Part shown: positions 3,017 to 56,218 of the stretch, in pieces | Layout of the letters: every line of letters begins with the position of its first letter | Position numbering within the stretch: position 1 is the first letter of the stretch | Assembly (NCBI GenBank): GCA_013995675.1 | Contig: VWRR01000003.1 | Location: forward strand, 248,001-312,000 | DNA length: 64,000 nt | Direction of reading: 5' to 3' | Source of the DNA: Cyanidiococcus yangmingshanensis | Lineage: Eukaryota; Rhodophyta; Bangiophyceae; Cyanidiales; Cyanidiaceae | Position numbers and translations under genes: made by a program | The notes under the pieces: model-generated | What the model was told of the DNA's origin: nothing | Database searches by the model: none | Seen by the model: the letters and a program-made list of their open reading frames with translations, nothing else

Positions 3017-3691
3017 TCACAGAAATTCTTCTTCATAATCCTCATTCATCTCTTTATTGCTTGTCATCGCCTCCTTCGTGTGCAGACGAGCATAACTCCG
3101 TGCGTCTCGCTCCCTGGCAGCCAACTCCTGTCGGGCTTTCTCTTCGGCGTGTCGACGGCGTGCCTCGGCCTTGGACCAGCAGTGTTGCTCTTGCTCAAAA
3201 TCTTCACGTGCGTGTCGCATATCCTCTATGGTACACTCGGAGCGGGCGCGTTTAAGCTGCCTCAGCAGCATTGTATCTGCCCTGGGAACACGAGTTCGAT
3301 GAACGAGACTCATATCTCGAAAACCAACTTGACCAGGCTCATGACCGCCGTTTTTTGCAAGTTCAACACAGTCGTGTACACTACACAGACAGTATTCTGC
3401 TTCGCACCTTCGATCGAGTTTTCCTTGGTCAGGGCAGCAACGAGTCGAACCACCTCCGCAGGTGGCTCAGAGGCGCTGCTTGTTCAGCGCTCCAGCACAA
3501 CTTGGCAGTTCTCCGCCCTGAAATGTTCTTTTCTTGGGCCTAACATAGACGTGTGCAGATGAGTATTTGTCTACATGAAACCACCAGTCAATGGGTAGGG
3601 CGTGTTCTAGCAGTGCATCGTTCTCGTACTTATCGCGACCCATAAACGCCACGTAACCGGCTAACTCGTCGCAGTCGTAAACGTACGGCAT
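3017..3691 (-). CDS. CCDC25: CCDC25 homologue (NFACT-R domain), reading frame broken twice
   Basis: The first segment (3691 to about 3470) contains FMGRDKYENDALLEH and WWFHVDKYSSAHVYVRP, nearly identical to the NFACT-R/DUF814 core of CCDC25. The middle segment, in the next frame (about 3465-3345), holds EVVRLVAALTKENSIEGAK and VCVVYTTVLNLQK, matching the conserved AHLVKANSIQG and VVYTPWSNLKK stretch. The third segment returns to the first frame with GQVGFRDMSLVH and a charged coiled-coil tail ending DYEEEFL. The family is about 208 residues long, matching the summed length. One extra base near 3470 and one missing base near 3340 explain the frame changes; conserved blocks abut with no room for introns. 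CCDC25 is linked to ribosome-associated and DNA-sensing roles in animals; its role here is unknown. The start at 3691 gives MPYVYDCDELAGYVAFMG, aligned to the family N-terminus. Confidence 0.8.
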
Positions 3692-4854
3692 GAACCACTC
3701 CGTTTGCTCCTGTTTCAAACGTGCAAATCAACGCTACGGTTCGTCGAGCACTGCTGCGTTATACTTATCGACGCACTACTATTCATGAAGAATACACTTG
3801 ACCAACGCTACCTTGTCGACGAGGGGGGTGCCCCAGTAGCAGACGCTTGTCGTTGATTGTCACGCGCGCGCTACATGAAGGTCGCCTCTGCGGCGATTGT
3901 TTGTTTGTCCAAACACCCCACGACCAGCATTGACAGCCGTTGCAGAGATATCGTCCCCGACTTGGAGTATTTTGCACAAGCATCCATGCTTGAAGAATGT
4001 ATTCGGACGGGTGATCTGTGTCACAAAGGATGTGCCTTGATGGACAGGTACCTTCCTAATGAGGTCGGTTTACCACAGAACCAAACGTATCCGGAATGAA
4101 GCCCAGTTTCCTTCTCTGGGAAAACAGACATGGTTCCAGGAAAGACTGCTGCTTGTTCAGCTGGATGGAGGTATTTCGCGCGAGCCAATGGTGTTGCGAA
4201 GGATGTATGTTTCACTGCATTTGCTACGCACGCCGAGACATATGCGCATGAAGCAGGCCGACAAGCCGAATGCATTCCCATTCAAGAAGGCCATCCGAAA
4301 TGCTTTCTTGACGCAGTTTGTGTGTACTTCTTGAAACAAGCAGCGTGCACCTACGAGTTCACCCGCATGGCTATGGCCGAGCCATGCCGCATCGAAGGAG
4401 TTTTCCTCACGCTCCTTCTCCATGGGACTTTGCATCCAGAGCGAAGCCAACAAAGGGCCTGCTTTTTTCACCATGGATGTTGAATGACTCGAAAAACAAT
4501 ATTCATGGGGTGCGCTTAGGCGTCCCGTGTCCGTGCATAGGGACTGCCCGAACACCCCTCACTTGCCGAGAACAGCATGTCCCCAATCATTCCTCTCGAG
4601 CGAAAAAGCACTCGCCCAGAAAATTCTACACGAAACAGAACATTCCGTCTGACCACTATCGCCTCGTCATGCTCCGAGACATATCTTCTTTCGATTCGGA
4701 AACCGGGAACATCTCTCGAGCGAGAACGACACCGAAGGAATGCGAGGCCGTCGTGCTCGTCCGTCCTCTGTTTAGTCGGAGCGCGCCAATTCTGCTTCGA
4801 GGTACAGGAACGGTGCGCGTTGCTCGGAGCAACGTCCCGCACAGATAGGGTGCG
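3692..4854. other. Intergenic; possible unrecognised Cys-rich small frames
   Basis: Two plus-strand frames in the same register (3857-4099 and 4130-4483) encode Cys-rich stretches such as KCFLDAVCVYFLKQAAC, but I recognise no family and an in-frame stop separates them. Minus-strand frames here are equally unconvincing. No RNA gene seen. Confidence 0.25.
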
Positions 4855-5580
4855 ATGGCGAAACAGGTCGTCCCGGAAGAGGAGCAGGAACGGGTCTTCC
4901 GGACACTCTTGGCAGAGCCAGAGAACAGTCGTTGTGCGGAGTGCGCGGGTCCGGGGCCGCGTTGGGCGTCTGCCAACCTCGGTATCTTTCTCTGCATTCA
5001 ATGTAGTGGTCTGCACAGGAAGCTTGGAGTTCATGTGTCGCAAGTGCGATCTGTGAACCTCGATCGCTGGACCGCAGAGCAACTGAATACCATGAAACGC
5101 ACCGGCAACCGACGAGCAGCGGCTGTCTGGGAGGCACAGCTGCCACCAGACTTTACGCGACCCGTACCTGGCGATACCAGCCGCCTGCAACAGTTCATCT
5201 GGAATAAGTACGTTGAGCGTCGATTTTACAGCGAGCGAGCGGAGACCTTGGACCAGGAGGCAAACGCTCCATCTATCGAGGATACAAAACAAGATCAAGA
5301 TGGACTGTTGGCGTTCGCGACTCCAGCGGCCTCTGTTCAGACCGGAACAGGACACTCTAATGCCAGTGGGCCTTTGTCGGATCACGACTCGTGGTCCGAG
5401 GCTCTTTTACCGCTCTACGAGGATCATGGTTCGGCGAGAGCAGAACCAAATGAAACCAGATCAGTGTCAAATCATCATATGCATCTAGAACGGAAGCGCC
5501 ATATCTTGGCCATGTATGGGCAGGGCAGAGGGTCTGACTCGATTCATGAGGCATCTGACACGCCGTCAAAGGCTTCATAG
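4855..5580 (+). CDS. ArfGAP domain protein (SMAP/AGD type)
   Basis: A 241-residue protein whose first 120 residues are a clean ArfGAP zinc-finger domain. Cys27, Cys30, Cys47 and Cys50 give the CX2CX16CX2C pattern, and Arg55 in GLHRKLGVH is the expected catalytic arginine finger. WNKYVERRF closes the domain as in small SMAP-type ArfGAPs. The remaining half is polar and low in recognisable motifs. By family knowledge it stimulates GTP hydrolysis on Arf GTPases at Golgi or endosomal membranes. The ATG at 4855 directly precedes the domain and no upstream in-frame extension is needed. The frame is uninterrupted. Confidence 0.92.
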   Translation: MAKQVVPEEEQERVFRTLLAEPENSRCAECAGPGPRWASANLGIFLCIQCSGLHRKLGVHVSQVRSVNLDRWTAEQLNTMKRTGNRRAAAVWEAQLPPDFTRPVPGDTSRLQQFIWNKYVERRFYSERAETLDQEANAPSIEDTKQDQDGLLAFATPAASVQTGTGHSNASGPLSDHDSWSEALLPLYEDHGSARAEPNETRSVSNHHMHLERKRHILAMYGQGRGSDSIHEASDTPSKAS

Positions 5581-5997
5581 AAGCTAGACAGCAGCGGCGA
5601 AGGGCGTATACGCCAGACCTGGCCATGAGCGGAACTGGAAAACAGGTCGTATGAAGAATGCATGGGACGTTGTGACGCTGCGAACTGGAGTCCCCGGGCC
5701 CCAGGGTGTGCGCTTTCGAAATCCAATATCGGATGTTGGGTATCATCGAGAATATGTTATCACTGCGACCCTGAAGGGTCCGTTTGCACCCATGCACCAT
5801 GTCTTTGCGGGTTGGCCTCAGTGGCGTCGCTCCAGAAAGTTCCGCTCGGCGTCGTGTGCGCAGATGAGACTCGCTCGAGGTCAGGTCGATCCATTCGGAT
5901 CAAGCGAGTCTACTAGTTGCCTACCTCCTCTGGCAATCTAAGCGGCTGCAAACGAGCCTGGAGCTAGCTCAGCCATCTCCGGGTACGAGAGAAGCGT
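5581..5997. other. Intergenic between convergent genes
   Basis: Lies between the 3' ends of the ArfGAP gene (+) and the CNOT9 gene (-). It has short frames only; I see no supported feature. Confidence 0.35.
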
Positions 5998-7081: not shown

Positions 7082-7550
7082 ATGCGTGCACGTATGTTTC
7101 AGAGGGTTGTTAAATCGGTTGCTTTTGCTGTTGGATGCAGCGGAAAGGGTTCAGCGGTTGAACGACTTCGATGTCGTGGCGTTTTCGCAAGTCTCCGAGA
7201 TCGAGCTTTTGTCACGGTCCACCAGGGTCCAACTACGGTTTTGCTGGGAACACAGTGTCAGTGCTTCGTCTGTACATGACGCACTGTTGGTGCGCAAACG
7301 ACGCTGCCTCTATCGCTCAACGCAGCGCGGTCTTCGGGAGCTCGACCTCCTACTCGGGGAGTGGACTCGGCGGGAACTGGACCAGTTGAGCGAGCAGCAA
7401 GTGAACGAGCTCGAGCAGATACTCAACTATGAAAGCCTCCAGCTATACTGCTATATTACAGGGCAAATGACACCACCTACGGAGCTGGAGAGGCTCCCAT
7501 TATTCCAACGACTCGTACAGGAGACGAAAGGTAGGTCCGCGAGCGCCTAG
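7082..7550 (+). CDS. SDHAF2: Succinate dehydrogenase assembly factor 2 (SdhE/Sdh5), frame broken once
   Basis: The C-terminal segment has the SdhE/Sdh5 signature: RKRRCLYRSTQRGLRELDLL, then LNYESLQLYCYITGQMTPP, matching the conserved RGxxELD and YxWITGQ blocks. The family promotes covalent FAD attachment to the flavoprotein of respiratory complex II in the mitochondrial matrix. The frame carrying the domain has no ATG. The frame one base away starts with ATG at 7082 (and 7094) and reads MFQRVVKSVAFAVG, a typical Arg-rich amphipathic presequence, until a TGA followed by C at about 7277. Joining the two needs one extra base somewhere in 7090-7279. The homology of the domain is clear; the start is inferred. 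Confidence 0.8.
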
Positions 7551-27310: not shown

Positions 27311-28696
27311 GGTTTCCGTATGACAAGACTTTGGTGAACGTTGCGGTCTCTATCGTCAAATGAGTCGAGGTTCAAATCCAAACAGAACAACATCATGGCT
27401 GGACGCCGCTGGCGATGAAGTGACGTTCGCCCGCGCGGCCAGATTGTCCAACTTTAACCTCGGGGAGCCACCACGGCCGCCGTTCTCCCGCCGCGCAACC
27501 CCTCCGATGCTGCACTCTGGTGTTGCCACGTGGCAGTCCCCCCACGTGCTCGACGCGTTGTCACGAGCATTGTGACACGAAGCACGGACCGATGACCGTC
27601 TTGCCAACGCGGTCATCACGAGGGCATTGCCTGCGGGCCAAAGGTCAGTGCACGTGGCAGGTTCGTTCGCCAATCTCTCCGCGGCGACGAAACGCGGAGT
27701 CCTTGAGTTCGATCACTGCTGTGTTCGAGCTACGTGTCTGCGATATCGGGGCTATTTGTTGGCAGCGTGCGTTTTTCGTAGGAACGCGATCAGTGCTCTA
27801 AAGCATCCAATTTCGGTCTCTATTCGACGATATCTGGTTCAAGAAGGCGAGTCTCCGAACAGATCCCGTTCCAATGTCAGAGGTCCAGTTGCAAATTCGC
27901 ATCATGTCTGTCCAGAGTGTTACCAAAAGGTCTTTACGCTTCTTGTCTCGCCACGAATGAACATCACGCAGCACCAGGTTGCGGCATTGGCCTTGTCTAC
28001 CTTGGAGAAAAGCAAGCGCCGTGGTTGCAAATCAACCGAGGCGTCCTGGGTCGTTCATTCAGTAATACGAGTCAGCGTCCTAACACAGTATGCAGAACAT
28101 GTCTAGTCAAGCGTCTGGTAGCCTCGCTTTTGCGGAAAAGGCCCTATCCAAATTGGTTAGCCCGCCTAAGAGCGAGAGCTTGCAACGCCCTCTACCCCGA
28201 AGAGCGGGATGGCTCAAACAGTTCTTTCGCATCTTTATGGTATCCGTTTTGGCATTCGAACGTGGCCGCACGCCCATATAAAGTGAGAACAGCATGCACT
28301 GAGCAGATACGCTGCATGATGTGCTGCAGCAACGCTCGGAACATCTGAGCCGTGATCAAAGGTGCACCCCGCCCCTATCTCACGAGCTTGGGTTCACCTG
28401 TCGTTTGGCCGATGATCCAAGATGACATCCTCCCAAATTCTCTATATGGACAACCTTGCATGCACCTGGCGACTCGATGATAAGACCCACTTAGCTCTAA
28501 TTTTGAGTTGTCTCGTGTCCGCCATGACGATCTGTCCACGTCGTTCGCCGAAGGATACGCTTCGATCGCGCAGGTGTTTCATGACCGGTGCCGTGCGTGC
28601 GCGTGCCTCGACCCAGTTGCGCGTCGCAGTCTCCTGTGTGCATCGATTTTTGGATCGTGCGTCTGCCGATAAGTGAACAGGAGCCGCAACGATACG
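27311..28696. other. Long gap, nothing recognised
   Basis: It contains a 63-codon plus-strand frame (28090-28281) with a hydrophobic C-terminal half that could be a small membrane protein, and other short frames. None is identifiable. A ggttcaaatcc sequence near 27370 resembles a tRNA B box but no cloverleaf can be drawn around it. Confidence 0.25.
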
Positions 28697-29436
28697 ATGT
28701 TCGTTCAAACTGTTGTAGCGAACGCAAGGCAAGTCGCTGGTTTTAGAAGTGATCGCTTGTGCCATGGAGTGCGGTTACCGGTGCGAAGCCTTGCACGTCG
28801 CCGAGCAAAGGCGTGTTCACTGCTCCGAATGGCGAACAGCTTCGGATACAACGTTTTTCTGGACCCGGATGATCGCGCGAAGCGAGCCCTTTCAGATAAA
28901 GATGTTTACGCTGTTGTGAGAAAGCCACTCGGACTTACTCTAGCTGAACGAGACGACGGTATGGTGTATATTGCAGCCGTTGATCCCGCAGGCAATGCAG
29001 CTGAGACTGGTGTCTTCCGCCCGGGCCAGGTCGTGACCGCTGTTAGCGCAACCTTCGGAGACGAGGTGTGGAGCGTTCGCGGTGTCGGGCTTGACCGCGT
29101 TCTCAAGTCTATCAAGGTACGCTCTGGTGACTATGTGACTATTGTTGTTGAGGACGAACGGACTATAGAACAGAAGAAAGCGGACGCGTACGAAACGGCC
29201 CAGCGACGCGCAGATGAGGCCCGAGAAAAGTTTGGAGAGCGTGAAGTTCTGGACCCGGTGACCTGGACGAGTCGTCGGTCCTCCACATCCGGAGATACGT
29301 ATCGCTACGATCCAGAGACTCGAGCGAAGAAGTGTCTGGCTCAGTGGATGAACCCTTTCGTCAGACCTGGCTGCTTTGGGCGCTCGGCGGTGTGGTTGCA
29401 ATTCTGGCCGTACTAATATTCACATTTTTCACCTAG
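28697..29436 (+). CDS. Plastid PDZ-domain protein with C-terminal membrane anchor, frame broken once
   Basis: The first ATG at 28697 gives MFVQTVVANAR and an Arg-rich stretch, a transit-peptide-like start; the mature part begins near MANSFGYN. A PDZ-like domain follows: KPLGLTLAERDDGMVYIAAV, GNAAETGVFRPGQVVTAVS and GDEVWSVRGVGLDRVLKSI, then a charged helix (EQKKADAYETAQRRADEAR). The reading frame runs to 29416 but its last residues look random. In the neighbouring frame, 29326-29436 encode EEVSGSVDEPFRQTW and then LLWALGGVVAILAVLIFTFF, an obvious single transmembrane helix ending at a stop. One missing base in 29245-29330 joins them. The plan resembles chloroplast PDZ proteins of the MET1/ZKT kind; function unassigned. 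Confidence 0.65.
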
Positions 29437-30442: not shown

Positions 30443-31409
30443 CTACGCTTTCGCGTTCGGGGAGTTCTCCACACTTGATGGTGGCGCTTTCTGCCCGTTT
30501 TGCCCGCCTGAGCTTGGGTCACTACGCCGCTGCAGATGCAAATTCCCAATACGATGGCTCGGAAAGAGCAGCTTCAGCACGCGTTCAAAACGTTGGCGCA
30601 TGCGACGGTTCTTTCGACATTTTCGAATGGCTCGCTCCAGATACAGAATCTGCAAGTTCTGATTTCCATGCTCTAGCTCACGCGCCTTGCCCTGCGCTTT
30701 CAGAACACGGTTCCAGTCAATTGTGCGACCAGCTTCTAATCGTGCGATTGCGGGCTTTTGCATTGCGCAAACGCCACTGCAAAAGTCGCATTTCCAGCTG
30801 AACTTCGTCTGTGTCGGTATCGGCAATGAGGCCGAGCTTTCGGAGCTCGCCACAGACTCGGTTCTCCAAAACTCGATAATATTCGTCCATAACTTGGGGA
30901 TTGGCTGGCCCGCCCCAGAATAGATCCTCCGGACCAGAGCCCTTGTTCCGCAGGGTAATACCAATGCCTTCGATGGCGCCTGGAGACTCCACAAACGCCG
31001 CTGAGACCCGCTGAAAGAACGGATAAGAGTTCAGACGCGCGCGCAGCAGTTGTTCTGCGGTCCATTTTTCTGTAGCAAGTGTCAGCGCATTCAGCGAGCT
31101 GCTTGATTCCAAGCGTCGGCGGCGTCTTTCGGGAGGGCGTGCTTCGGGTGGGTTCCCCCCGTTCTCAGCAACGGGTGCCTCTGGCTCCTCGTTAGCAGCC
31201 GGTACTATCAGGTCCGTATCGGGGCCGTTATTCATCGAATCACTCTCTCGGATATAGCTTAAAGATTCAATAGTTATCGGGCTGAAAAAAGGCTCTATTT
31301 CTCGCCAGAACGGATCGGCGTCTTCGTGCCGCAACGGGTCCCAAGCGCTTTCCGGCAACGCTGCCGCTATCGCTTGCTGTTGCAAGCCCAGCGCCCGTTG
31401 CTGGCTCAT
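30443..31409 (-). CDS. ADA3: ADA3-like SAGA/ADA complex subunit, frame broken once
   Basis: The first 230 codons have an acidic, Pro-rich linker, then ALTLATEKWTAEQLLRARL and YYRVLENRVCGELRKLGLI, TDEVQLEMRLLQWRLRNAK and ARNRTI. This order matches the C-terminal part of ADA3/TADA3 (LTQRLLQALVEE, KSLESRIKEELIAQGLL, DEVLAELRKRQAELK, HNRT). The frame ends in TGA followed by C at 30717. The next frame continues with DWNRVLKAQGKARELEHGNQ and ERAIRKCRKNRRMRQR, helical and basic like the remainder of ADA3. One extra base in about 30717-30790 would explain it. ADA3 links the Gcn5 acetyltransferase and Ada2 in SAGA-type coactivators. The family call is by pattern. Confidence 0.6.
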
Positions 31410-31740
31410 ATCTACTGGACTCGTCAGCGCCGCACAGCAGGCACAAAGTCGCGAGGAGGAGTCTACAGCGTTTCACAAGTCAGCCCTGCTCGAGAACGAC
31501 TTGGTGCGTGGCTTTTTTGTGGGTCTCCCTGACAGAGCCGAACAGAGCGGGTACATCGCCACTCGGCCGAACCAGCGAGGGCGGTGGCTTCACTACGGCG
31601 CGCCAGGATCTGCCCAGTAGCATTTCGAATACCGTGGCCCGTCTCATTTCTCTCGACGCTGGTAACTTTGGTTCGTAAAAGATCTCCACCAGAATACCGA
31701 TGTGTGCACGGAACAGAGTTTTGAGTCGAATTCAATCTTG
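31410..31740. other. Divergent promoter ADA3 / PRP38
   Basis: About 330 bases between two divergent nuclear-protein genes; no other feature recognised. Confidence 0.35.
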
Positions 31741-34233: not shown

Positions 34234-34858
34234 ACGAGAGCGAAACAAAGTTGCAAGTGCCGCCAGCAGCTTCAAAGGAGACGCTTGCGATACCCGAAAA
34301 CCGCATTCCCAATGAGGTTTGCGACGAGTTGTAGCGTCGCCTCCCTTGCGCGGCGCGGATCCTTTCGACGAGGGATCACTTCTGGGACCTATAACATGGC
34401 CTTGTGCCGAGTTCGTGTTTCATTCGGCTGTAAAGGTCTGTTTGATTTTTTTGCGAACCCCCGGTCTTTATCTGAGGAATAAGGGAGTGTGTCCGTCGCT
34501 TGTTTTTCTGGCGTCTCGGGAGCGTTGCGCCAACCTGGAGCTGGTTTGGGCCGTGCCTTGGTTGCACCTGCCTGGGGAAGAAACTCCGTCTAGAGCAGAA
34601 CCGCTCTTGCCATTATAACTGTTTCAGGCGCAACCAAATCTTCCAGAAAAGGTTTATACGAATTCCTGTCGTAGTTCGATACTGAGACTACTTTTTGAGC
34701 AGGAAAGCGTCGATCTTTCAGTAGCTTAGGCGACTGGTTTCCGGACTTGGCTGTCAGGCAACGCTTCAGTGACGTTTTGAACGAATCTAAGACGTCGATA
34801 GGCCCGCGAACATAGGACGTGACTTTTGTACCAACTAATTGCCTCGTTATTGGATACA
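34234..34858. other. Divergent promoter region, nothing else recognised
   Basis: Intergenic between the rubredoxin gene (-) and LTV1 (+). Short frames only. Confidence 0.35.
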
Positions 34859-36585
34859 ATGCTGCAGCGAAGGTTTCGTCGACGGAACATGCGGACTTAT
34901 ATTCTGGTACACGAGTCGCTCACGGACCGCAACGGCGACGAGCCGCCAGTCGTCTCTGATCGAGGTGATCATCGCCGCGTACTCGTTCTTCAAGAAGATC
35001 ATCGAAGGGGTGCCCGTGAAGAAACGGGCACTGCGTCGGGAGCACTCGAGCAACCGGGGTCCAGGCATATCTACGCCAGACGTCTCGACACCGATGAAGA
35101 CGCCTTGTTCGCCGCAGCGGAAACAGCGTATCAGCTTGAGAGGGATACTCTTAAGAGCGGCGAGCGCTTACCTGATGACGGGTATGACTACGAACAGCAT
35201 TTCCGAGAGCGGGGTGACGGAGTCTTCGTCCCGGCGCAGGGCCTCAACACCATCGCGATTGGATATGATTCCCTTGATGGATGCGAGGAAACACGAACCT
35301 TTCCGGAGAGGCGCTTGGATACAGACCTGGAACAGGTGCTCGAAGCGCTCGCATCAGATGGTGAGGATTCCGGAACCGCTCCCGTGACATCTGAAGAGAT
35401 ATCGCTGTCGATCTCGGAGTCATCATCGGGCAGTGAACTTGAAGACGATTTCGTGCTTCGAGCCAATCGAGAGCGTGCTCATTCGGAGTTGCATCATGAA
35501 GAGCAACAACCGCGTGGTGCAAATATGTACCAGGAGCGCGGAGCAAAACAGCGCGAAACGCGCACCAGGCGGTTTGTCGATGAGCAGTTTGATGCTTTGT
35601 TCGAATCGACCTACGCGACAGACGTCCTGGTCCATGGGAATGGGTCTCGCGACACGCTCGAACAACACACTGATGACCTCCGCGAAGATGTTTTTCAATC
35701 ACTATTAGAAGACTTTGAAGAGGATCTACGAAAGTTGCGCCTTGACCCAACCAGAGATACCCAAGGTGTACGTTTGTCGCAGACAGAGACGGCAAGCGCG
35801 AATCCGGATGCAGGGTGCAATGAAGTGCAAATAACAAACAGTGCCTACGGAACGCTGCGCCTGAAAGCGGCCAGCACGAGGGTCACACGGATGAACCGAC
35901 GCTCTCTAACCAGCCCTCGCACAACTTCAAGACGTGTCGGGTCGTTAGAACGCCATCTCGAGAGAGTGCAAACTCATCGCCGGAGCTAGAAATCGCTGAC
36001 CAGGATTGGGACTCCGGTATACCTTCCGATTCTCTGGATGCTTCCGATGATCTCGCGTACGAGGAAGACGAGAACGCAGCGGCGAGCGCGAGTGACCCAA
36101 CTCAAGGAACAGCGACGACAACCGCGGCACTCTATAGGCCACGTATCATTCTTTGTCCTCGAGACCGTTTTACCCGTCGCCGTCGTCGTCTGCGTTCGAA
36201 CACGCTCACCCTGGATGAGCAATCGACTAGCTGGCCCGAGGCGCCAACAACAGCTTTGCCCTCATTTCCGGGCGGAATCGAGCATCGCCTGCTACAGGTC
36301 GATGCCACAGACAGTTCAAGCTCCAGCCATGCAGTCCATACCGAGACGAAAGAGACGATGCCAGGTGCATTCCGGCTGCCGTGCCACTCGATAACCGCGA
36401 CAGAGGAGAGCGCATCCACCGGGAAACGCTTTCACAAGAGGGTCGTCAAAAGCCTTCGGCGCCAGCGCCGTGCCGCGAAAAAGGCCCTCCGGGAAGCCTA
36501 TGGTCGAGAACGCGTCCGACAGACGATCCATCGCCATAGCTTGGGTACAGCCAAAGTGAGCGTCCATTACAATGACGCGTTTTAG
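34859..36585 (+). CDS. LTV1: LTV1 ribosome biogenesis factor, frame broken once
   Basis: The start at 34859 (MLQRRFRRRNMRTYILVHES) fits the LTV1 N-terminus (basic stretch then FxLVHRS). DDGYDYEQHFRERG near residue 105 is the hallmark DDDYDYMQHLR motif. Long acidic and Ser-rich regions follow. The frame meets a stop at 35989, but from about 35880 the neighbouring frame is open and protein-like (ELEIADQDWDSGIPSDSLD) until 36585, ending with a basic helix (RRQRRAAKKALREAYGRER) typical of the LTV1 C-terminus. One missing base in 35880-35945 accounts for it. LTV1 assists 40S maturation and nuclear export, with Enp1 and uS3. Total size about 575 residues, near the family norm. Confidence 0.75.
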
Positions 36586-37686: not shown

Positions 37687-38116
37687 TCAACGAGCCTGGC
37701 GAGTTGCGGGCAACGTTAGACGCCACACGACTACTGAGCACGGCGTCGCGTGCCATATCTCGGACCGAAGTCTATCCAGCACCTGAGCCACTTCCTCGAT
37801 GCTGCCGTCCTCAATGTCAGCGGAGCAGTCTTCTTCGAAAAAGTCCTCTAACCAGGCCACGACAGTGCTCACCTGGTATGGCTGAATCGTTCCGTCTGGT
37901 CGCACGTATTCTTGGATAGCAAGTGCTATCAAGTCGTCTGCAAGGTCAGTCCACGCTCAATGCAGTGTCAGGACCCGCCCAGTTGTCTGCGAGTGCCAAA
38001 CGCATCGCCGTCCATCGCTCAAAGACTGCGCCCACCGCGAACGAGAACAGATCTCTGGCGACCAAGAGATCAGGCAAAGGAGCCAAGTCTGAAGGCAGGG
38101 TAGCCGATGCGTTCAT
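37687..38116 (-). CDS. TSR2: TSR2 pre-rRNA processing factor, frame broken once
   Basis: The start ATG at 38116 gives MNASATLPSDLAPLPDLL, then FSFAVGAVFERWTAMRLALA and DNWAGPDTA, the TSR2 signature (GVxxxFxxWxALQLAVENxWGGxDS). The frame stops at TGA followed by C (37946-37948). The next frame continues DLADDLIALAIQEYV, STVVAWLEDFFEEDCSADIE and DGSIEEVAQVLDRL, the conserved second half (DVEDFLEExMxxxFxxxxEDGSxxEVA). The shift must lie within about 11 bases, because the downstream frame has its own stop just before. Removing one base restores the family spacing exactly. TSR2 is the escortin that delivers eS26 to the pre-40S ribosome. It is divergent from ClpR. Confidence 0.82.
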
Positions 38117-38326
38117 AATACAACCCTCCAATGGCCGAGCGTTGGTCTCGGGAGACAACGACGCGCCGAACGAGGAATACTTCAAGCAGTATGCCCTCGA
38201 TAGAGAGCACGACGTCGCCCGTCCGGACGACCGTCGCGCATTGCGTATGCCGGTCCGCTGGTCACGCTCGACGCTGTATCGGTGTCGCTTGGGAGCAAAG
38301 AAACCTCCAACGTGTCGTTTTTCGCC

Positions 38327-39209
38327 ATGTTCTTGTCCGGTGTAGCATTGTCCTCTGTGCAAGGGCGTCGAAGGAATGTGGCTGCTTTACTTCGCAACAC
38401 GGGTTCGAACCGCACCAGTCCGAGTCTGGCAGAAACCGGTTGGTTGCCGACGTCGGCCACGCTGAACGGAACTTGCGCCAACAGGACTTTAACGGATCAG
38501 CGGCCACTCGATTCGGATCCCTATAACAAATTGATGCGCTCTAAAAATGTGAACTGCGGGTCTTTGCAACTTGCGTATGAATCGAACGATGCCCCGCGTG
38601 CCCTACCGAGGCCCCGGCATGCAAGAATACGTTTTCATTGATCTCATGCAGCGTCTGAACAAGGACCGAATCATCTTCCTCGGAGAAGAAATTGATGAAG
38701 AAGTCGCTAACCAAACTGTGGCCCTGTTATTGCAGATGAAAGAGGAGGACGCCGTGTCACCAGTGAACCTCTACTGTCAGATACCTGGCGGGATATTCAC
38801 TGCTGGTATGATGATCTACGACTGCATGAAAAATTTGCCTTTTGATATTGTGACGTTGAATATGGGCATGGCGGCGGGTATGGGGGCCTTTCTGGTCGCT
38901 GGCGGCACGAAAGGGAAACGCTTCGCGCTTCCGAACGCGCGATTTCTTTTTCAACAGCCCAGTTTGCTGGATGATTTCGAGGGCAGCGCGGAAGACATCA
39001 AGACCGAAGTGCTGAATGTGCTCCGTCAGCGTGATCAGTGGCTGCGCCATCTCTCAGAATTTACAGGTCATCCGATTGAACGGATCACAGAAGACTTCCG
39101 TCGGGATCGGTACTTCACGGCCTCGGAAGCGCGCGAGTACGGCCTCATCGACCGTGTGCTCGAGCCAACCATGAAGGGCATGACGAGAGAGATGGAGGCC
39201 AATCTCTAG
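38327..39209 (+). CDS. clpR: Plastid ClpR, non-catalytic Clp protease subunit, frame broken once
   Basis: From the ATG at 38577 the protein is a ClpP-fold subunit: VPYRGPGMQEYVFIDLMQRL, DRIIFLGEEIDEEVANQ, YCQIPGGIFTAGM, NMGMAAGMGAFLVAGG, KGKRFALPNARFLFQQP and REYGLIDRVL. The catalytic Ser of GxAASMGA is Gly here, and the catalytic His of MIHQP is Gln, so it is a ClpR-type inactive ring subunit; PRVPYRxPG recalls ClpR1. A plastid protein needs a transit peptide: the neighbouring frame upstream starts at ATG 38327 with MFLSGVALSSVQGRRRN, Ser/Thr/Arg-rich and ideal for that. The core frame opens only after a TGA at 38550. One extra base in 38553-38600 would join them. Confidence 0.82.
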
Positions 39210-44461: not shown

Positions 44462-44633
44462 CCAGCAGCACCTCGAGTCCGTCTACACCGACACCATGCT
44501 CCATGGGTGCTGAACCATCGACCTCGACGGTAACCGTTCTCCGAACGCACCTATCCCAAGTCGCAACCGATGCGTACGCTGGCCCTGGGAGCGGATCATC
44601 GCCCTGGTCGATGGACATCGCTGCCGTGCGCCC

Positions 44634-45849: not shown

Positions 45850-48800
45850 TTAAAGTACCATTTCGAAAGGGTCACTGAAATCCGGTTGCCAGTTCTTCCG
45901 ACTTCCGTACTCATACAGCTGCTCAATGGTGGCGTCAAGGACATGTTGACGCTCCAGCTCCTGATAGAGGCGATAGAGATCCAGGGCCGCTTGGGCGTCT
46001 TCGCTGGAGTCGTGGCCCTGTTGCTGCCGATTCTGGATGTTACGCCTCAACAGGCAGCCAGAAAGAAATCGCAACGAGAGCAGTCTAGATCGGCCGCGGT
46101 TGCCATCACCAGCTCGTTGCCGAAAAAGAAGAGCCGTATCGCGGTATTGCTCCGTTTGAAGCAAAAAGTTCAAGTGCCGGAAATCGCTGCGGAGCCCGTG
46201 TCCGACAAAGATGCATCCGGCTCGTTGAAGCGCATGCAACTTTGCGTAGACGTATTTGCTCAGGGTTAGGTAGTGGCGAGTTCGATTCGGTTGCAAGTCC
46301 GTCGCAGTGATGCCACTGTATCGAGTCAGGTAATCAACGATCTGAAATCCTGGTGGCGGGAGAACGTAGTCGTCCAGAAGGACCTGGCCGTTCTCTCGAA
46401 TCACGGTCACTCGGGCGACGTACTTACGCGACGGCTCCAGAATCACTCGTCGCGTGAGTAGCTCCTCCGTCGGCTGACTCGAAGGCATCCATGTCGTCTG
46501 CAGACGTTGATCCTTTCCATGCCGGCGCGCACATAAGATTTCCGCCTTCTCTCGCGAAAGCAGGACAAACTCGGTGTCCATTGCAACGAGTGTACCGGGA
46601 GTGAAACGCTCCCCAGGCGCTAGTGGCACGAATGATAGGCGTGCCCGCAATGCTGCCATATCCCCGGCCTGCAGCAGCCGCCGATGCACCGCACTCAAAG
46701 GGCGCAGCGCGAAAATGCGCTCCCAAGATGCCCGCCAATCGATCGGTGCCAGCGGTTCGGGAAACGCACGGCTCGCATCGGTGTCATCAACCGGTCTTTG
46801 ATACAGCAACAAAACGGGTTGCAAAAACGACGGATCGTAGGACAAAACCTCACTCGCATCCTGAATCGGCGTGATTGTGAAATCATTGAAGCAAAACCAG
46901 GTACCAGCTTGGGTGATCGTCGACGCGTCTCGGGGCTGTGACCCCTTCACCTTGAACGAGGGCAACCGCAGATGAAAACGACGATGCCCTGTCGACGGTC
47001 ACTGACGCATCACCGGAACGTACACCGGCCACGACGCCAACCAGTCGATAGGAATAGCTGGTCCCCGACGAAGGCATCAGCTCCAGCTCGGTCGGAATTG
47101 CATGTACAACCAGCTCAGTGCAACTACATAGCAGATACGGTGGCAGTGAAACAACTTGACGAGATTGTTCCACGAGCTCGACTTTTTGACTCGCCGGATG
47201 CAGCGCTCGAATCGGCTCGAGCCGCTGTTGCAGCGACGCGGCCACAAGCGCGCGAAAATCGGTCGCATCCGTCACGACGCCCTTGCCATTGGACACGGAC
47301 AGCACGAACTGGCTGTGGACACGTGTCGTCTCGAGGACCGCTCGAAACGGCCCGAATGCGTGTCACGATGCGTGCACCGAAAAGTCTCTCCGTCACGCAC
47401 CCATGACTCGAGCCGTAAACACCATTGGACTCCTCTCGAGAGAGATGCTCGAGCAGAAAACGACTGAATTTGTCTAGACGGCGCTCTAGTGGTGTGTTGG
47501 AATGGGCCTGCACGGCACCACTCAGGTCGTCGACGAGGCCCAAGGCCACCGCTTGTGGTGTTTGTTGAAAGGCATAGATGAGGCGGGCCGCCTCGCACGC
47601 CGAGCCGCCGCCTCGTTCGAGCATATCGTAGAGGTAGCCGAGCTCGGCAGCGATACTGGTTGGGATCTCTTCGGAGGTAGAGGCGAATCGATGACATATA
47701 CTGAACATGGCCATGCGGAATGGACGCACGAAGAAAAGTAGTTGCAATACGGCGTTCATGTACGAGTTGGGTAGATTATTCTCCAGTCCGCAGAAAGGCG
47801 TGCGATTGTAGAGCGCGTAATCAAAGCCTTCGAGGCTCTCCGCTTTCACCAGATCCATTCGGCGAAAGCGAACGCGTTCCAGAAGTGTATCCAGTTTCGG
47901 CTGCACTTGAGTATTGATGGCGGTGGTGGTCTGCAACCAACCTTGGTCCGGCTGAAGACATAACGCATTGCGGTCGGTATCGGTCGATGTCAAGTAACCG
48001 ATCGGTCCGATGAAACGAGCATTTTGGATCGCCTTGGGGCTCGCGAGCAACGGGAATCGGATGCTCGCCGTCAGTCCATGATCGGTCCGGTTGCTCAAAC
48101 GAGACACCGGCAGCGGTGTGTCGGACAGCCAACGATGGCGTGCACTCGTCGCTGCGGGGAAGGCCCAACGACGAGCTCGGCCCTAACGATGCCTCTGCAA
48201 AGAGGCGCTCCAGGGCTGCAGCACTGATCATATCACCATCAGGAGCAGATGCTGCCGATGGATGGAGCGCCAGTACCCTGACATAGCCACCAATGTCTCC
48301 GACTGCAAGCAGATCTCCTTCGCTGCAAATGTCGAGGCTCGAATAGAGGGCGTTGGCTGCCGGCAGGGTCATGCCACTCGCGTACTGGAGCGGCTGCTGC
48401 ATCCCCACGGATCTGAAAGCGCTCCAGATTCCCGCCAACTCCGAGCGTGAAGAGACTGCCTGACTGGGGATGCCACTTCAACGCGATGACAGCATCCGCG
48501 CTTGGCACATCCAGTTCTTGAACGATGGCTGGCGATTGTTTGCAACCTCCACTGATGCCGTCTAGACCTTTGCGAATATCGTAGATCCGGACCAGTGGCA
48601 CAACGCCATACACTGCTGCGACATAACCGCTTTCGGGGAGCACAGCCAAGTCGACGACAGGGAGGCGCGGCGCACCCGACAGCTTGCGAGTTGGCTCCGC
48701 CTGGAGCACACGCAACTGCGAAGAGTCCCGTATCGATATCGTGCCATCATCATGTCCCAAAACGACCGCATCGTTACGTAACCAGTCTGCCGCGAGCACC

Positions 48801-49339
48801 CTGCGGACGTGCGGCGGGTCCACTGATGATCGCAGGGCGATGCCTCTCTCCGCGTGCAGCAGGTGCATTCGCCCAAGATCAGTTACCACCAGCAACATTG
48901 CATGTCCGGACAGCGGTATCGGCCGACAGAGACGGGACTGCGACCACTCGGGGCTGATCAACACATGAACCGGAACACCCGTCGAGGTACGCACCACGAT
49001 TCCGTTCGCTGATGCTGACACAATCAGCGGTCTCTCCATAGAGCCATGCACTGCGAACAGGTCCCGAACGCCATCTGATAAAGGACCCGGAATTGATCCA
49101 ACCCAAGACGTAAACAGATAACCCGTTGGGAACAGATGGGTATGAATCTGACCAGTCTGAGTCCCAAACAGAACCAAACGAGCGCAACGGTCCGCGCGTT
49201 CGACAACGTCGGGACCCCGCTCGACCAGGTGCGCAGCACCAATAGCTTCCAGTGGCAGGGAAAGCCAGCGTACACGTCGTACAGGATCGGGAACTCCGTG
49301 AAAGCCTAAATACCCGGGGGCAATCCCCAGTACCTCCAT
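45850..49339 (-). CDS. PAN2: PAN2 deadenylase catalytic subunit, frame broken four times
   Basis: All PAN2 parts occur in order over 3.5 kb, spread over changing frames. First, an N-terminal WD40-type propeller (49339 to about 48410, MEVLGIAPGYLGFHG ... KWHPQSGSLFTLG) whose last repeat continues in the next frame (LDICSEGDLLAVGDIGGYV). Second, the linker and inactive UCH domain (about 48170-47370: PKAIQNARFIGPIGY, FDYALYNRTPF, CGLENNLPNSYMNAVLQLLF). Third, a segment at 47350-47000. Fourth, the exonuclease at 46995-45850. There VAMDTEFVLLS, FVGHGLRSDFRHLN and HDSSEDAQAALDLY supply the D-E-D-D-H catalytic set. Each change equals one extra base, near 48403, 48120-48180, 47351 and 47000. PAN2 with PAN3 shortens poly(A) tails in the cytoplasm. 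Confidence 0.88.
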
Positions 49340-50316
49340 ATCAAAGCGCTATCGCTACTTCCATAACCTTGCCTTGAGTATGCAAAAAAGGTCGGACGCA
49401 ACAGAGCTCGTCAAAACAAGAAACACACTCCTACACCAGTGCCGAGTTTGCAAGTCCACTCGAGAAAAGCACGTCAGTTCTCCAGTGGAGACTCAATTTT
49501 CTCGCTGAGCGCTGATTGAAAAACGCTATTGCCAATGGTCCACGTCTATAACGCGTGTCGCGAGATACAGAAACGCCGCCGGGTCGACAGAATGGAACAC
49601 TCGCTGACGTCACGCCCCTGCGCATACGCCTCTTGTAAAGACGCCTACGACTACCTGTTTACAATGGTGCAGTGGTATGCACGTTCAGAAGAGAGCGTAA
49701 GAATCATTGGTCAAGTCGATCTCGCTTCGTCAAGGTGAGTGGTTTCAAATCGCTAGTCTAGTGACTCGAAAGTAGTTTGATCTCCAAGATGCGGGACGAG
49801 AAGTACCGTGCATACGCAGAGCGAGCGCCCACTGGGCCCCGATCTCGACACGAAGATGCGTTTGCGGTCGAGAAGAAAGGAGCAGAGTTTCTCTAGTTTT
49901 ACTGGAGCAATAGTGTCTAAGAGCACCCGATTCGAGCTACTTTTTGGTCGGTGAGTCGCCAGCTGATTCGGCGACTGCGATTGCGTGGCAGAGCCGACCT
50001 TATCGTGACGCTCCGAAACCGATCCAGCGATCGTCCGCAGCGCGAGGTAGTCTCAAAGAACTGAGAGAATCAGAGTGGCATGAGCGAGTCGGAATTGTTG
50101 CGCGATAAGGTCGCTCTTCTTGACAGTGCTGAAAAGAAAGCTCCTCTTCATTATGAACAAATATGACGTCGACAAGTTTGGTACCCTGTCTCTCTGAGAC
50201 GAAACATGATCGTTCTTATCAGTTGCAATCGAAGGCGTAACATTCAGATCAGTTTTTTGATAGAGATGCTTCGCTCGGGGGCAGTTCTCGAAGCGTTTCC
50301 GCCTGGCCGCTCGGAG
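49340..50316. other. Long gap, nothing recognised
   Basis: A 69-codon plus-strand frame (49529-49738) ends close to a gtgagt that could serve as a 5' splice site, but no matching downstream exon is recognisable. Otherwise short frames only. Confidence 0.25.
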
Positions 50317-51936
50317 TCACTCAAACAGGCCTCGCCCGGCGACAGGCCTGGCTAACAATAGACCAGAACTCTCGTGCTGCACCTTCATCCGTATAACGCC
50401 GGTGTCGATGAATAGGGATGCACTTAACAGCCCATTGACGTACGGCCAAGGGATTTGTTCATCCTCGTAATAGAAATAGACTCCTTTGACGGCTGCGAAG
50501 AGCTGTGCTGGCCCATTCGGAAAGGGCCAACCTTTGAATTGCCAGGAGGCACCCTGGCAGACAACCACAGCAACCCGCTCCCATTCTGCGGGCATCAGCT
50601 GGTTTGGTTGATCCGTAAATACATAGGTCTGGCCTCGGTGAGAGATCTGGATACGAGGAGCTGGTTTTCGCACCACGCCCTGTTTCCGTAGCTCCTCCTG
50701 AGGTACAAACGTCCCCGACTCCACAAAAGGTTTCACATTCAACATCGTAATCAGCGGTTGTTGTCCTGACTGGGAGGATAATGATCGGATGGAGTGTATC
50801 GTAACCGCTCCCCGTTTGTGCCTGCGTACCACCGGCACTCGCGTGTTTCTTGGTTACGACTACACCTGCTGGGCCGTTGTCGCGACCATGGCCAGCTGTC
50901 GTCGGGGTTCCTGTTCGCTCTAATCGCCCAGTGGATGCTGCCGTCGACTCACCTAGAGTCGTCTCCATCGAGTCTCTAGCCGACAAGGCATTGCTCCCCG
51001 GCTCTAAAAGACTTGCTGCCACAGAAGCAAACCCGGCTGCTGGATCGATTTCGAGCCTCTCGAGGTCAGCGAGACCGGCTTCGCGGTACGCTCGCAACGG
51101 ATCCGTTCGATATCGATCACCACGAGCGATATCAAGATCAGACGCTTTCGCAGTTACTAGAGTCGGCTGGCCATCAACGGACGCCCTGCCTGAAACTGCA
51201 GCATTCTCCACGGCTGGTACACCCTCTGGTGGTCCGGCGATGACGGATTTGCGTAGCGCCTCAACGACCGGGAATGTCGTAAAGTCGATTCCCTTTCGTT
51301 TGTCGAGCTCGAAAAATCCATCGCATGAACGTTGTACTCGTTCCATGGCGATACAGCGTGCAACGTAGGCAGACTCATCAAAAGCTCCGTGTCGAGTGTC
51401 CTGGTTTGAGGCGCTCACATCATGCTCATCCCGCTCGATCTTGACTGAGCTAGAAGCGACAGCCTCTTTCACAGAAGAGCGCTCGTCAAGAGGTTCCTTC
51501 TCTGCTTGCAGATCAGCTTTCGTTGGTGCGGTTGTTTGCGTTGTCTCCATTGTGGATGCAGCTCGAAGCGTCTGGTCAGCTGACGCTAGCAGCACTTGAG
51601 TCGAAAAGAGAAGATTCCTCGAAACTCAGCTCACCAAGCATAAATTTGACCAGTTCTTTGCGTTCTGCTTCCATAAGTCGACTTAACGCCATGTGTTTGA
51701 CAGTAAGCCACGTACTCACGAAGTGAAGCATCCATGTGCAACAATGCAACATAGATGTCTCGAAGGGTGTAGGGGTCTCCTTTCCGAGCCCCTGCTGTAC
51801 GGCGAGCGGGCGTCGGGTCGTCAAGCGGATAACTCTTTGACCCGATATGCAGTACCTGCCGATCTTCATCAATAGATGACTTGGACATGGCCGAGCCGAA
51901 CTCACCCAGCGCCTGCAACGCAAAGAGAGGCTCCAT
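50317..51936 (-). CDS. CDC73: CDC73/parafibromin, PAF1 complex subunit, frame broken three times
   Basis: Starts at ATG 51936. The N-terminal segment (KGDPYTLRDIYVALLHMDAS) and its continuation one frame away (SRLMEAERKELVKFMLGE, compare VVRRPDRKDLLGYLNG) match the CDC73 N-terminus. A disordered middle follows in a third frame. The conserved C-terminal Ras-like domain begins HPIIILPVRT and continues in a fourth segment: PLITMLNVKPFVESGTFVP, YVFTDQPNQLMPAEWERVAV, WQFKGWPFPNGPAQLFAAVK and GVYFYYEDEQIPWPYV. Breaks lie near 51660-51690, 51576-51625 (upstream frame ends TGA-C) and 50752-50767. At the last one, removing one base gives exact length agreement with the family's PIIIIPxxxTSLITMLN block. 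The PAF1 complex travels with RNA polymerase II and promotes histone modification. Confidence 0.88.
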
Positions 51937-52515
51937 GCTGCGACGCCCTCCTGGCAGTACGCTCAGCGACTACAACGGCGCGTACACAAAGTCTCAAAAG
52001 GAACGTGCGATCCGCTCTCTTAGCCACTAGTCACCGCGGATCGAGACGGTTGGCCAGAAAAAATACCAACTCGGCTGCAACAGAGTACCTCGTCTGCGTT
52101 CGTGGGTTCAGTCGTCGCTTCCCGAGTTCCGCACGCTGTCTCGGTCGCAGGTCACCGTTCAGAACCCGAACCCGCCCTAAAGACAGTCTAATTTCTGAAG
52201 GTTTCTCTCTTATCTATAACTAGTCACACAGTGCACTTTTCCGTCTCCCCGTCTAGAGAAACAACAAAATAGAGACTATGGCGAATTACTGCGAATCCGA
52301 GTCGCCATATCCCTAACAGAACCGGTCTGGTTCTTGTCACACAAACGTATTGTGGTTCACAACAGTGTCTTCCGTACGCTTGAAACGTCAACAGACGAAG
52401 CGGGTTCTGGTTGCGTCTCAAGGACCTCCACTTGGTGAGTTTGTTGGAGTCAGGGGCTTGGCGGTTTGGTGCCTCACGGGAACGTTCAGGTACAGCGATC
52501 TCCTGCTCATCGGGA
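51937..52515. other. Divergent promoter region CDC73 / PgsA
   Basis: No gene recognised. The PgsA frame is open upstream of the chosen ATG back to 52411 but has no ATG there. Confidence 0.35.
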
Positions 52516-53383
52516 ATGAGGGTTCTTTTCCTTCTAAACGAGGCGTGTAACGGAGCTCCGCGCCGACAACCTGCTTTTCTATGGTCTTCCGGTGTATTGA
52601 CCCTGGTTTGCTGGAGATGCACGCTTTCTGCCGAAAAATGCGGCCGTCGAGAGCGAGCGTGGAGGACTAGACGAGCGAGCCGCAACCCCAGCTGTTGCAT
52701 CGAGGAAGTTCCCTCACAAATTCGACGGAAACAACCGATCGATCCTGCGAAGCGCTATCGTTTGAACTTGGGACCAGGTGCTGAACTACAAAAACCGGTC
52801 CCAGTTCAGAGCTTGAGCTTTTGGAACCTGCCGAACGCGCTCACGCTATCTCGGCTCATCTTACTTCCATTGATCGTAGTCTGTTTCTACATCCCTCGAG
52901 ACTGGGCCGCTCTTGCTTGTGTAGCGCTCTTTGGCTTGAGCTCTTTGACGGACTCGCTGGATGGCTACGTCGCTCGGCGCCTGAATCTCACCAGTGTATG
53001 GGGTGCTTTTCTTGATCCGGTCACGGACAAGCTCAGCATCTTAACAGTTCTCGTGTTGCTCGTTGAGCGTCACGCCACTATCTGGATAACAGGACCCGTC
53101 CTCCTGATTCTCCTCCGCGAGGTGGCAATCACCTGCGCTCCGAGAATGGATGGCGACTCGAGGTCTCCGCGATGTAGTGGCTGTCAATCAACAGGGAAAA
53201 CTGAAAACAGTTCTCCAAATGACAAGCGTGTTCTTGTTGCTGCTCGCACAGACAAGCATTGGTCTTCCGCGAGGAGTCTTCTATTTGGGAATGGTGCTCC
53301 TGCAGATTGCAGCGATCTTATCCGTGACGTCCGGATACGCTTATTTTCGTGCGGCCCTGGATGCTCATGCAAAGTACTACTGA
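52516..53383 (+). CDS. pgsA: CDP-diacylglycerol-glycerol-3-phosphate phosphatidyltransferase (PgsA), frame broken once
   Basis: A transit-peptide-like start at ATG 52516 (MRVLFLLNEACNGAPRRQ) is followed by the CDP-alcohol phosphatidyltransferase domain: NLPNALTLSRLILLPLIVV and SLTDSLDGYVARRLNLTSVW plus GAFLDPVTDKL (the D(X2)DG(X2)AR(X8)G(X3)D(X3)D signature), then LLREVAIT. The expected continuation ALREWMATRGL with VAVNQQGKLKTVLQMTSVFL lies in the next frame to 53383. One extra base (a T near 53134) separates ITAL-type residues exactly, so there is no intron. The enzyme makes phosphatidylglycerophosphate, precursor of phosphatidylglycerol, the main thylakoid and mitochondrial phospholipid. 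Bacterial-type PgsA in algae serves plastids and mitochondria. Confidence 0.9.
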
Positions 53384-54822
53384 GCCGTATACAGATCTCA
53401 TTGAGGTGAATTGCGATCACGAGATCATGAGGCACCGTGCAACCCCATATCTACTGGTTCAGGGTCGACAACCAGGGAGCAGGGTCTGATTCAGCGCCGC
53501 CTGGACGCTCTCCAGGACAGAACCATGCACTTGATTGGATAGACTCACACAAAAGTATGCACGAGTCGTCATCACGAGATGCTGCTCCCGCTAGAATCGT
53601 TCTGCAACTGAAGCGGCTCGTGGAGCATCCAACGCCTCTGAAAGAATAAGACCGAATGGGTCCATTGATGTGGGCGGCAGCAGTTGCGAGCATTCGCCAT
53701 CGCTCGCGTATCGGGTTCATCGTCGGACGGCCAATTGCGGTAACGATGACCCAGAAAAACCTTTCCTTGATGAGCGCAAGTGGTTTACGAACGTCAGCCT
53801 CCTGCGGTGATTCGAAACCCTGCTTCAGGACCGTATGGTGCAGCGATGTCGCACTCGACAGGAGCGACACGACCATGACCAAGACTGCGTTCCGGCAGGC
53901 AGCACCGTCGACATGTACCCATCGCCGATGACTTGTCGTCTCCTCGAACACTGGGAATGATTCGTCAGCGTACGATTAAAAGCCCAGCTCCAAAACGCGT
54001 CTGTATTTGCATGGCTGATCGATGCGATGATCGGTCGTCACTATGAACAGGGTCGAGCACGCGCTGAACTGTACCCTTTCCCACGGAGGCATGCTGCGTA
54101 GAATTCAAAGAAACTTTGCGTTGCCGCAAATCGCCCAAGGATGATGACGAAGGAGCCCCTCGTATGATGGGAACGAACGCTCTTCGGATACTGCGCGCTT
54201 CGCCAGTGTCGAGTTTCGACGAGCGCTCCATCTATCTAGAAGGAGCATCATGGACTCGCAATCATCCGTCGATTGAGGCCAACAAGAGTTTATGATACGG
54301 AGAGCGAGCCTTGTGCCCATGGCTCGTGCACACTGGTTTTCCTGAAGCGTGCACGTTCGTTCTTGAATCCATGAAACCGACATTCACTCGCTGGGGCAAT
54401 CATAGGAGAGCGGTTGTGCGTGGCTAGAGACGCACACATTTGTCGGATGTTTGTCTGTCGTGAGACCAGCTTCAGTGCTTCCGGGTGCCCATGAAATGGA
54501 CGCACCCTCAACGTGCCAGCTGGCAACGAAAATTCAGCACGACCAAGAGGTCACCCTACAGTCACCGATTGGAGATCAGCGTCAGTTCATGGGTTTTGGT
54601 GGCCAACGACCTCGGACAAGTCGGACCAGACCGCCACCGCCTGCAACTGCGATGCATTAGACAGGACTTTACAGCTTCTCTTTGCGAGTTCCATGGGGTT
54701 ATCTGCGTCAACGCGTAAAAGCGCCTCGCGCACTCGTATGATCACTTGCGTCCTTCAACGACATCTCCGTCAGCAGCTTCGAGAAGGGATCATCCGTGGT
54801 CATCCCGGTGTCGGACTCACCG
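53384..54822. other. Long gap, one unassigned minus-strand frame
   Basis: A 166-codon minus-strand frame (53451-53951) has a hydrophobic stretch (AVLVMVVSLLSSA) and RFFWVIVTAIGRP, so a small membrane protein is possible; further frames lie upstream in other registers. No family is recognised. Confidence 0.25.
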
Positions 54823-56218
54823 CTATCGAGGCCAGACCGGCTCTTGTTTGAAGGCCGATCCGACATTCGGACTTCGCTGGGGCGCCAACGCGCTCCTTTC
54901 TCCGTTCGCGGGTGGGTTCTTCACAGTGCTCGCGGAGAGCGACCCAGAGAGCAAGTCATCGAGCAGATGCTTCCCCTCTGGAGCGGAACGATCCGTTGCA
55001 TCTTTCGCCTTCATGACGCGTGCAGATACTGCTGCCTGCGATGCATTCGTACTGGTTGTCAGATTCGATGCCCTGGTGTTCGCTTCATAGCCTCGTGTAG
55101 TTGCATTCGAGGCGGTCGGTTTTGCCACCATAACAGATGACTGGATCTTTTGGAAAAAATCATCGTCTTCGGAGCCAGGCAGACCTGCGGATCCAGTGCC
55201 CACCGTCGATGGTTCTGATGCCGCAGCCGCTGCACCACCTCTCTGAGCCGCGGCTGGCCCAGATGCTGCGGTCACAAAGTCACTCCAATCCTTTCTGGAC
55301 GTCTCGGTATCAAGTCCCGTCACTGTTGCGCCGCCTATCGATCCAATCTCGGATTCTTCGTGGCGACTCGCTACGGCAGTGTCCTCGTCGTGAAATCCGA
55401 GCAGGTCGTCTACTTGCGACGGACCTCGCGGGGCTGAAGTCGTTCCAAGCGCACCTCTGGATGCATCAAAGGTCGCCACTGACTCCACCTCTGCGCCGGT
55501 GTCACCAGCGCCAAAACCGCGGAAGGAAGCAGTTTTGGGCTCTTCCATAGGGCTGGCCTGCCCACGAGGCACTCCCTGCAGCAACCGCGTACGAGTGACT
55601 CCCACCAGCAACGCCAGTACCACCTCCGCGATATCCGGCCGGGTCAAAAGACATGGCGGTAGGTGCAGCGCTTCCCAGACTCGGATAGAGCGGACTCGAA
55701 CCCACCGAAGCACTCATTTTCTGCATCATCGTCAAACTCCGCTGCAACTCCTCTTCATAACGCCGCGGATCACGAATAATCTCCACCACAAGCTTCGCCT
55801 TCTGACGAACACTCATCCCGCAGTCTCGACGCTCGTTCTGGTCAAAGTAGCGAAAGTCTTGGAGAACCTCCAAGTGAGGGAGTGCTGCACGCGCCTCCTC
55901 CAACACCCGCGGCGAGCCGTGCAGTATCAGATAACGCAAAAGATCCAACGCTTTGTATACTCGACGCCAGTATCGCCCCCTATCATTCAAACGGGACCAA
56001 ATAATACCCATAATCAGCGGGTACTCTTCGGCGTTATGAGTCGCACTCGCAACCTCCGCAAGCTCCCGCTGAGTCGGACCGTACGGCTCGACACTCGTCG
56101 CTGCGCGCACCTTGTTCTCAATATCCGTCATGACCGCGTCCTTTATCCATGACACCAGCTTACCCCGTTGACGCACTCCCTTTCGCTTAACATCCGTCCA
56201 GTTCACTTTATCCAACAT
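54823..56218 (-). CDS. Epsin-like ENTH-domain endocytic adaptor, frame broken once
   Basis: The start at ATG 56218 (MLDKVNWTDVKRKG) precedes an ENTH domain of about 140 residues: KVRAATSVEPYGPTQRELAE, EYPLIMGIIWSRLNDRGRYW, RRVYKALDLLRYLILHGS and DCGMSVRQKAKLVVEIIRDP, close to epsin (KVREATSNDPWGP, WRHVYKALTLLEYLIKTGSERV). The frame ends in TGA followed by C at 55502. The neighbouring frame is open across 55713-54823 and carries EEPKTASFRGFGAGD and repeated Asp-Asp-Leu/Phe motifs (QVDDLLGFH, DDDFFQKIQ, LLDDLLSGSL), typical of the disordered clathrin/AP-binding tails of epsins. One extra base around 55502-55560 explains the change. By family knowledge it binds PtdInsP and clathrin at budding membranes. 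Confidence 0.85.

Follow-up and report, generated by a model that had tools for sequence, protein, structure and literature searches.

Why do the recognisable genes of one stretch of the genome of the red alga Cyanidiococcus yangmingshanensis repeatedly change reading frame, mostly as if a single base had been added? The stretch considered here, hereafter the window, is the 64 kb at C14:248,001-312,000, part of a 20-contig genome totalling 12,072,675 bases. In a first-pass annotation, ~17 reading-frame breaks were assigned to 11 genes, and residual single-base insertions of a long-read assembly were proposed as the cause. Judged from sequence comparison, the living alga very probably lacks these frame breaks, and its genes are almost certainly whole. 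We consider it probable that the breaks are consensus artefacts in intact genes and that most extra-base breaks represent both alleles of a single-nucleotide polymorphism (SNP) of a heterozygous diploid, retained adjacently. This reading adds to the original proposal a likely cause for the one-way bias.

Breaks in the window were established by a codon-usage hidden Markov model (HMM), split Pfam domains, three-frame reading or frame-aware alignment to relatives. By these means, 16 breaks could be verified, in 9 of the 11 genes: two in CCDC25, at least one in LTV1, four in each of PAN2 and CDC73, and one each in the genes for a PDZ-like protein, ADA3, TSR2, PgsA and epsin. Reading of the frames and alignments assigned an extra base to 12 of the 16 breaks and a missing base to three (the second in CCDC25, that in the PDZ-like gene and the fourth in CDC73), while the LTV1 change would fit either sign. 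The HMM was trained on long open reading frames (ORFs) of the same 262 kb over which it was run (the window plus 198 kb of flank). At the strict setting, all 16 in-gene junctions were of the extra-base kind (P = 3e-5), as were 19 of 20 at the looser setting (P = 4e-5) and 20 of 23 at the loosest, in agreement with the shared direction noted at first. Breaks were not significantly enriched in the window (7 in 33.4 kb of coding sequence) relative to its flanks (13 in 111 kb; P = 0.28).

The comparison with close relatives that had been suggested as a check gave single ORFs for CDC73 in four relatives and for PAN2 in two. In the window, CDC73 (50324..51936, minus strand; identified by alignment and its CDC73_C domain) is interrupted near 51,684, 51,590 and 50,770 by an extra base and near 50,452 by a missing base. 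Its relative P0025 (source label lgn, 537 aa) is one ORF, with 517 of 537 residues identical to the window gene, and its alignment requires four shifts, three of the extra-base kind and one of the missing-base kind at a short run of C. With the single-ORF relative P0026, all four shifts fall within one codon of the P0025-based positions. With P0028 and P0030, also single ORFs, three shifts agree with those positions, the first of them to within two codons; here the second is aligned as a step of two bases back, equivalent modulo three to the same frame change. The three CDC73 breaks reported at first were thus recovered together with a fourth that had been missed. Both shift signs therefore occur within one gene whose relatives have none.

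PAN2 (45853..49348, minus strand; frame-aware alignment and HMM) contains four one-extra-base breaks, near 48,391, 48,170, 47,335 and 46,953, and all four that had been predicted were seen by frame-aware alignment. Four extra-base shifts were required against the single-ORF relative P0001. Against P0002, likewise a single ORF, three shifts agree, whereas the second lies where conservation is poor and is aligned as two bases back; an additional compensating pair of shifts near the N terminus is taken as an alignment effect. The CDC73 and LTV1 proteins annotated on the same contig (844,003 bases) are short, at 363 and 376 aa (P0027 and P0031, respectively). Spliceosomal introns were rejected as a source of the breaks, given that each shift in PAN2 and CDC73 amounts to a single base, without an inserted stretch, and that published assemblies of the species list just 35-36 introns within ORFs (PMC13353863; this and the other papers cited by PMC number are represented by excerpts).

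Similar breaks were found on other contigs. Searches with chaperonin, class I tRNA synthetase and protein kinase domains (112 matches, 75.8 kb) revealed 13 frame changes between neighbouring domain matches on six contigs. Twelve of the 13 equal one extra base modulo 3; several of the gaps between these matches span hundreds of bases, within which natural insertions are possible. Three more frame changes, two of the extra-base sign, were observed in HSP70 genes, and searches with DEAD, AAA and GTP_EFTU domains returned further cut domains. In TrpB, NDUFS2, NDUFV1 and Rpt2, alignments to Protein Data Bank entries show conservation on either side of the break. Broken genes are spread genome-wide irrespective of function and include essential ones. 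Midasin (MDN1), encoded over ~15 kb at C14:390,548-405,917 (L019-L021), carries at least three extra-base breaks by HMM.

Contig C11 holds two segmental duplications of ~98.7-99.0% identity, one direct and one inverted (148,311-153,985 and 232,129-237,800; ~100.6-105.9 kb and 182.8-188.1 kb). In a duplicated stretch of 5.7 kb that is 98.7% identical, the sole one-base difference lies in an ORF of 1,090 aa; the extra base is present in one copy only, and the frame in the other copy of this ORF is 673 aa. Differences between the broken copy and its twin are synonymous or otherwise in a ratio of 13 to 6 beyond the break and 7 to 6 before it. The second duplicated block contains a few one- and two-base differences, and the chaperonin ORF within it has the same length, 565 aa, in each copy.

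When 12 located sites were read as +1 slips, they presented 12 different heptamers, nine P-site codons and no stop; a slippery motif or stop shared across these sites was therefore not found. Given the intact relatives, the breaks on other contigs in essential genes and the lack of a common slip motif or stop, the breaks are best accounted for as consensus artefacts. Real loss of all the broken genes is hard to reconcile with a living alga. The class of explanation offered in the first-pass annotation, residual single-base errors of a long-read assembly, is consistent with these data and with the mixed signs in CDC73. Its reading of the extra bases as plain insertions fits less well, as many are unlike plain or homopolymer insertions and resemble a second allele retained beside the first.

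This resemblance was apparent at many sites, where the extra base differs from its neighbour and each of the two adjacent bases gives an acceptable codon, usually related by a synonymous third-position transition (in Asp and Lys codons, for example). The idea came from a first set of 13 sites, 12 of them clear and one ambiguous, and was then tested on newly fetched loci. As a null, insertions simulated in 77 long ORFs allowed a synonymous transition pair in 23.1% of cases when random, 22.6% when non-homopolymer, 23.7% when duplicated and 21.8% when placed in homopolymers. Against a null of 0.24, the pair fitted 9 of the 12 clear sites that preceded the idea (P = 0.0003), 5 of 6 clear sites examined later (P = 0.004) and 14 of all 18 (P = 2e-6). 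Sites with an ambiguous residue (NDUFS2, CCT first, FtsH and a C15 kinase) were tallied separately, and PAN2 second, TrpB second, LTV1 and the breaks seen by HMM only also lie outside the count.

From this observed excess of synonymous transition pairs we infer a two-allele cause and a consensus step that would produce it. In a heterozygous diploid, the consensus would retain both alleles of a SNP side by side, adding one base. If the retained SNPs were mostly synonymous third-position transitions, the protein would read correctly on both sides while the frame moved by one. A retained second allele would always add a base, giving a single direction at mostly silent positions. The few breaks with a missing base resemble common errors at homopolymers. 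Diploid cells are documented in this group, with a heterozygosity of 2.19% in C. yangmingshanensis NIES-4659 and 0.146-1.72% in other Cyanidiococcus strains (PMC13353863).

Several points weigh against the two-allele reading. The idea arose from 13 sites already inspected. Counting ambiguous sites as misses reduces the later set to 5 of 9 (P = 0.04 with a null of 0.24, or 0.10 with a null of 0.30) and the whole set to 14 of 22 (P = 9e-5, null 0.24). Six of 14 fetched loci (C6 kinase, L034, L035, L036, L038 and L039) were dropped before the count, their site or sign being impossible to fix. Residues at midasin, the HSP70s, kinases, CCT, TypA, FtsH, the second Rpt and PgsA were assigned from well-known conserved motifs. 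Four clear sites do not fit: the first CDC73 site fits a synonymous transversion pair, the second a non-synonymous pair (P0025 has Val), NDUFV1 is a run of T, and the second CCT site fits a non-synonymous transition pair. Most sites that fit the pair fit a homopolymer insertion too. From the literature, NIES-4659 Ha1 is a haploid clone (PMC13353863), and heterozygosity is described as higher in Galdieria than in the remaining lineages of Cyanidiales (PMC9812998). In a search for spurious insertions in the long-read consensus of heterozygous samples, the mechanism was not found stated in the excerpts retrieved. Finally, the two published chromosome-level assemblies whose methods were consulted were polished with Illumina reads (PMC13353863 for one of them), and one derives from a haploid clone; an unpolished or earlier assembly version is therefore assumed here.

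An alternative to the two-allele explanation is plain residual long-read error, that is, random or homopolymer insertions with a few deletions and no role for heterozygosity. Such error is a possibility to which we give tentative weight: the intact relatives, the genome-wide spread and the absence of a motif would fit it equally, many of the located sites permit a homopolymer insertion, the missing-base breaks of CDC73 and CCT are at short homopolymers, and gene fragmentation by long-read indels is a familiar problem (PMC12007338). It does not predict that synonymous transition pairs should account for 14 of 18 clear sites when 22-24% are expected, nor the one-way bias of 16 of 16 and 19 of 20 junctions, given that a PacBio simulator setting has near-equal insertions and deletions (PMC8111713). 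Moreover, no homopolymer option exists at the second and third CDC73 sites, the first PAN2 site or midasin. True pseudogenes in the strain are very unlikely. Loss could be tolerated at C11, where the broken gene has an intact duplicate, but Rpt2, CCT, HSP70, the complex I subunits and TrpB are essential and are conserved to their ends past the break, and the differences in the broken C11 copy are mostly synonymous beyond it (13 vs 6). Neither this conservation to the protein end nor the C11 copy gave any sign of relaxed selection or further decay past the breaks.

Two further explanations take the extra bases as real, and we regard both as exceedingly improbable. In one, ribosomes would shift +1 in many genes, as in Euplotes, which would suit the strong one-way bias and the correct protein on either side of each break. 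The sites share neither motif nor stop, however; the relatives and the 98.7% identical C11 paralogue lack the extra bases, CDC73 mixes both signs, and PAN2 alone would require four shifts. Gene counts in two published assemblies of the species, 4,832 and 4,884, are close to the 5,022 of C. merolae (PMC13353863), and the word 'frameshift' is absent from the excerpted texts on both (PMC9812998 and PMC13353863). A literature search combining Cyanidioschyzon with ribosomal frameshifting returned nothing evidently related, as judged by titles. In the other, ribosomes would read occasional four-base codons, taking a wobble pyrimidine or purine pair as one base. Such decoding would need just the pair pattern seen at most located sites, but the intact relatives, the transversion and non-synonymous sites and the opposite-sign break in CDC73 all speak against it.

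The remaining window genes with verified breaks were characterised from domains, frames and the HMM. CCDC25 (3020..3727, minus strand) has one extra base near 3,470-3,483, where its NFACT-R_1 domain is split into positions 3-55 and 55-98 across two frames, and one missing base between 3,313 and 3,466 by three-frame reading. The PDZ-like protein (28673..29433, plus strand), which has a hydrophobic C-terminal stretch and a PDZ_6 match below the Pfam cut-off, shows one missing base near 29,317 at the looser HMM setting only. The ADA3-like gene (30446..31472, minus strand) has one extra base near 30,737 by HMM and a weak Ada3 domain match, also below the Pfam cut-off. In the LTV1-like gene (34823..36582, plus strand), HMM and alignment place a net frame change between ~35,838 and 35,986; it was originally described as one missing base, which is insecure, since one missing or two extra bases would serve and the alignments differ (two extra bases against P0032, another combination against P0033). 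The LTV1 relatives are single ORFs of 35-41% identity. TSR2 (37690..38386, minus strand) has one extra base near 37,949-37,956, and its WGG domain is divided between two frames (positions 1-29 and 32-80), each half below the Pfam cut-off. In the PgsA-like CDP-alcohol phosphatidyltransferase gene (first-part ORF at 52384..53406, plus strand), one extra base near 53,140 was placed from the domain and frames; the domain is cut at position 102 of 152 and the gene carries on in the next frame. Epsin (54826..56347, minus strand) has one extra base near 55,675 by HMM and a whole ENTH domain.

Two further domains of the window are whole. The Sdh5 (SDHAF2) domain at 7299..7520 (plus strand) matches positions 1-74 of 76 in one frame, and the ClpP-like (ClpR) ORF at 38553..39206 (plus strand) matches positions 5-180 of 182. 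Of 10 long window ORFs scanned, seven match Pfam families within a single frame. Scans of the window with Rfam (gathering threshold) and ARAGORN gave no matches. The guanine-plus-cytosine (GC) content is 53-57% in 4-kb steps, and the longest homopolymer is one run of 12 G, the next-longest runs being 7. Among the matches listed, arrays of the repeat AATGGGGGG occur at or near the ends of C6, C7, C14 and C15, and this repeat opens C3, C5, C6 and C17 at their first bases. Size, contig number, GC content and repeat agree with published C. yangmingshanensis assemblies, which are of 12.0 and 12.1 Mb in 20 contigs, with 54.6% GC and the telomere AATGGGGGG (PMC13353863, Table 1; PMC9812998).

Outside the window, an intergenic tandem array at C14:189,893-190,894 (L005-L006) comprises eight units of 123/124 bases. 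It was rejected as an assembly error because the length difference travels together with a SNP; this one-base difference looks like true variation. At C18:203,671-205,608, a chaperonin domain is split by a 300-base in-frame gap that has stop codons close by and may be one of the few introns of the species.

If the two-allele cause is true, one-base coding insertions in such assemblies would mark heterozygous sites, and the ploidy and heterozygous stretches of a sequenced strain could be read from its frame breaks. Quality checks could then seek synonymous transition pairs in addition to homopolymers. The truncated models P0027 and P0031 already sit in the protein collection that was searched, with a risk that they are misread as gene loss or unusual decoding.

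Two known systems invite comparison. Gene-fragmenting long-read indels (PMC12007338) are alike in that single-base errors break many intact genes and are exposed by intact relatives. In that nanopore case the errors are deletions at homopolymers, whereas here nearly all are extra bases and most of those located are synonymous transition pairs. Programmed +1 ribosomal frameshifting in Euplotes (PMC4759687) is similar in that many genes seemingly need a +1 shift. Most frameshift sites in Euplotes have AAA-TAR (PMC4759687); in the alga, by contrast, there is neither a slippery stop nor a common motif, the shift is missing in relatives, and both signs occur in CDC73.

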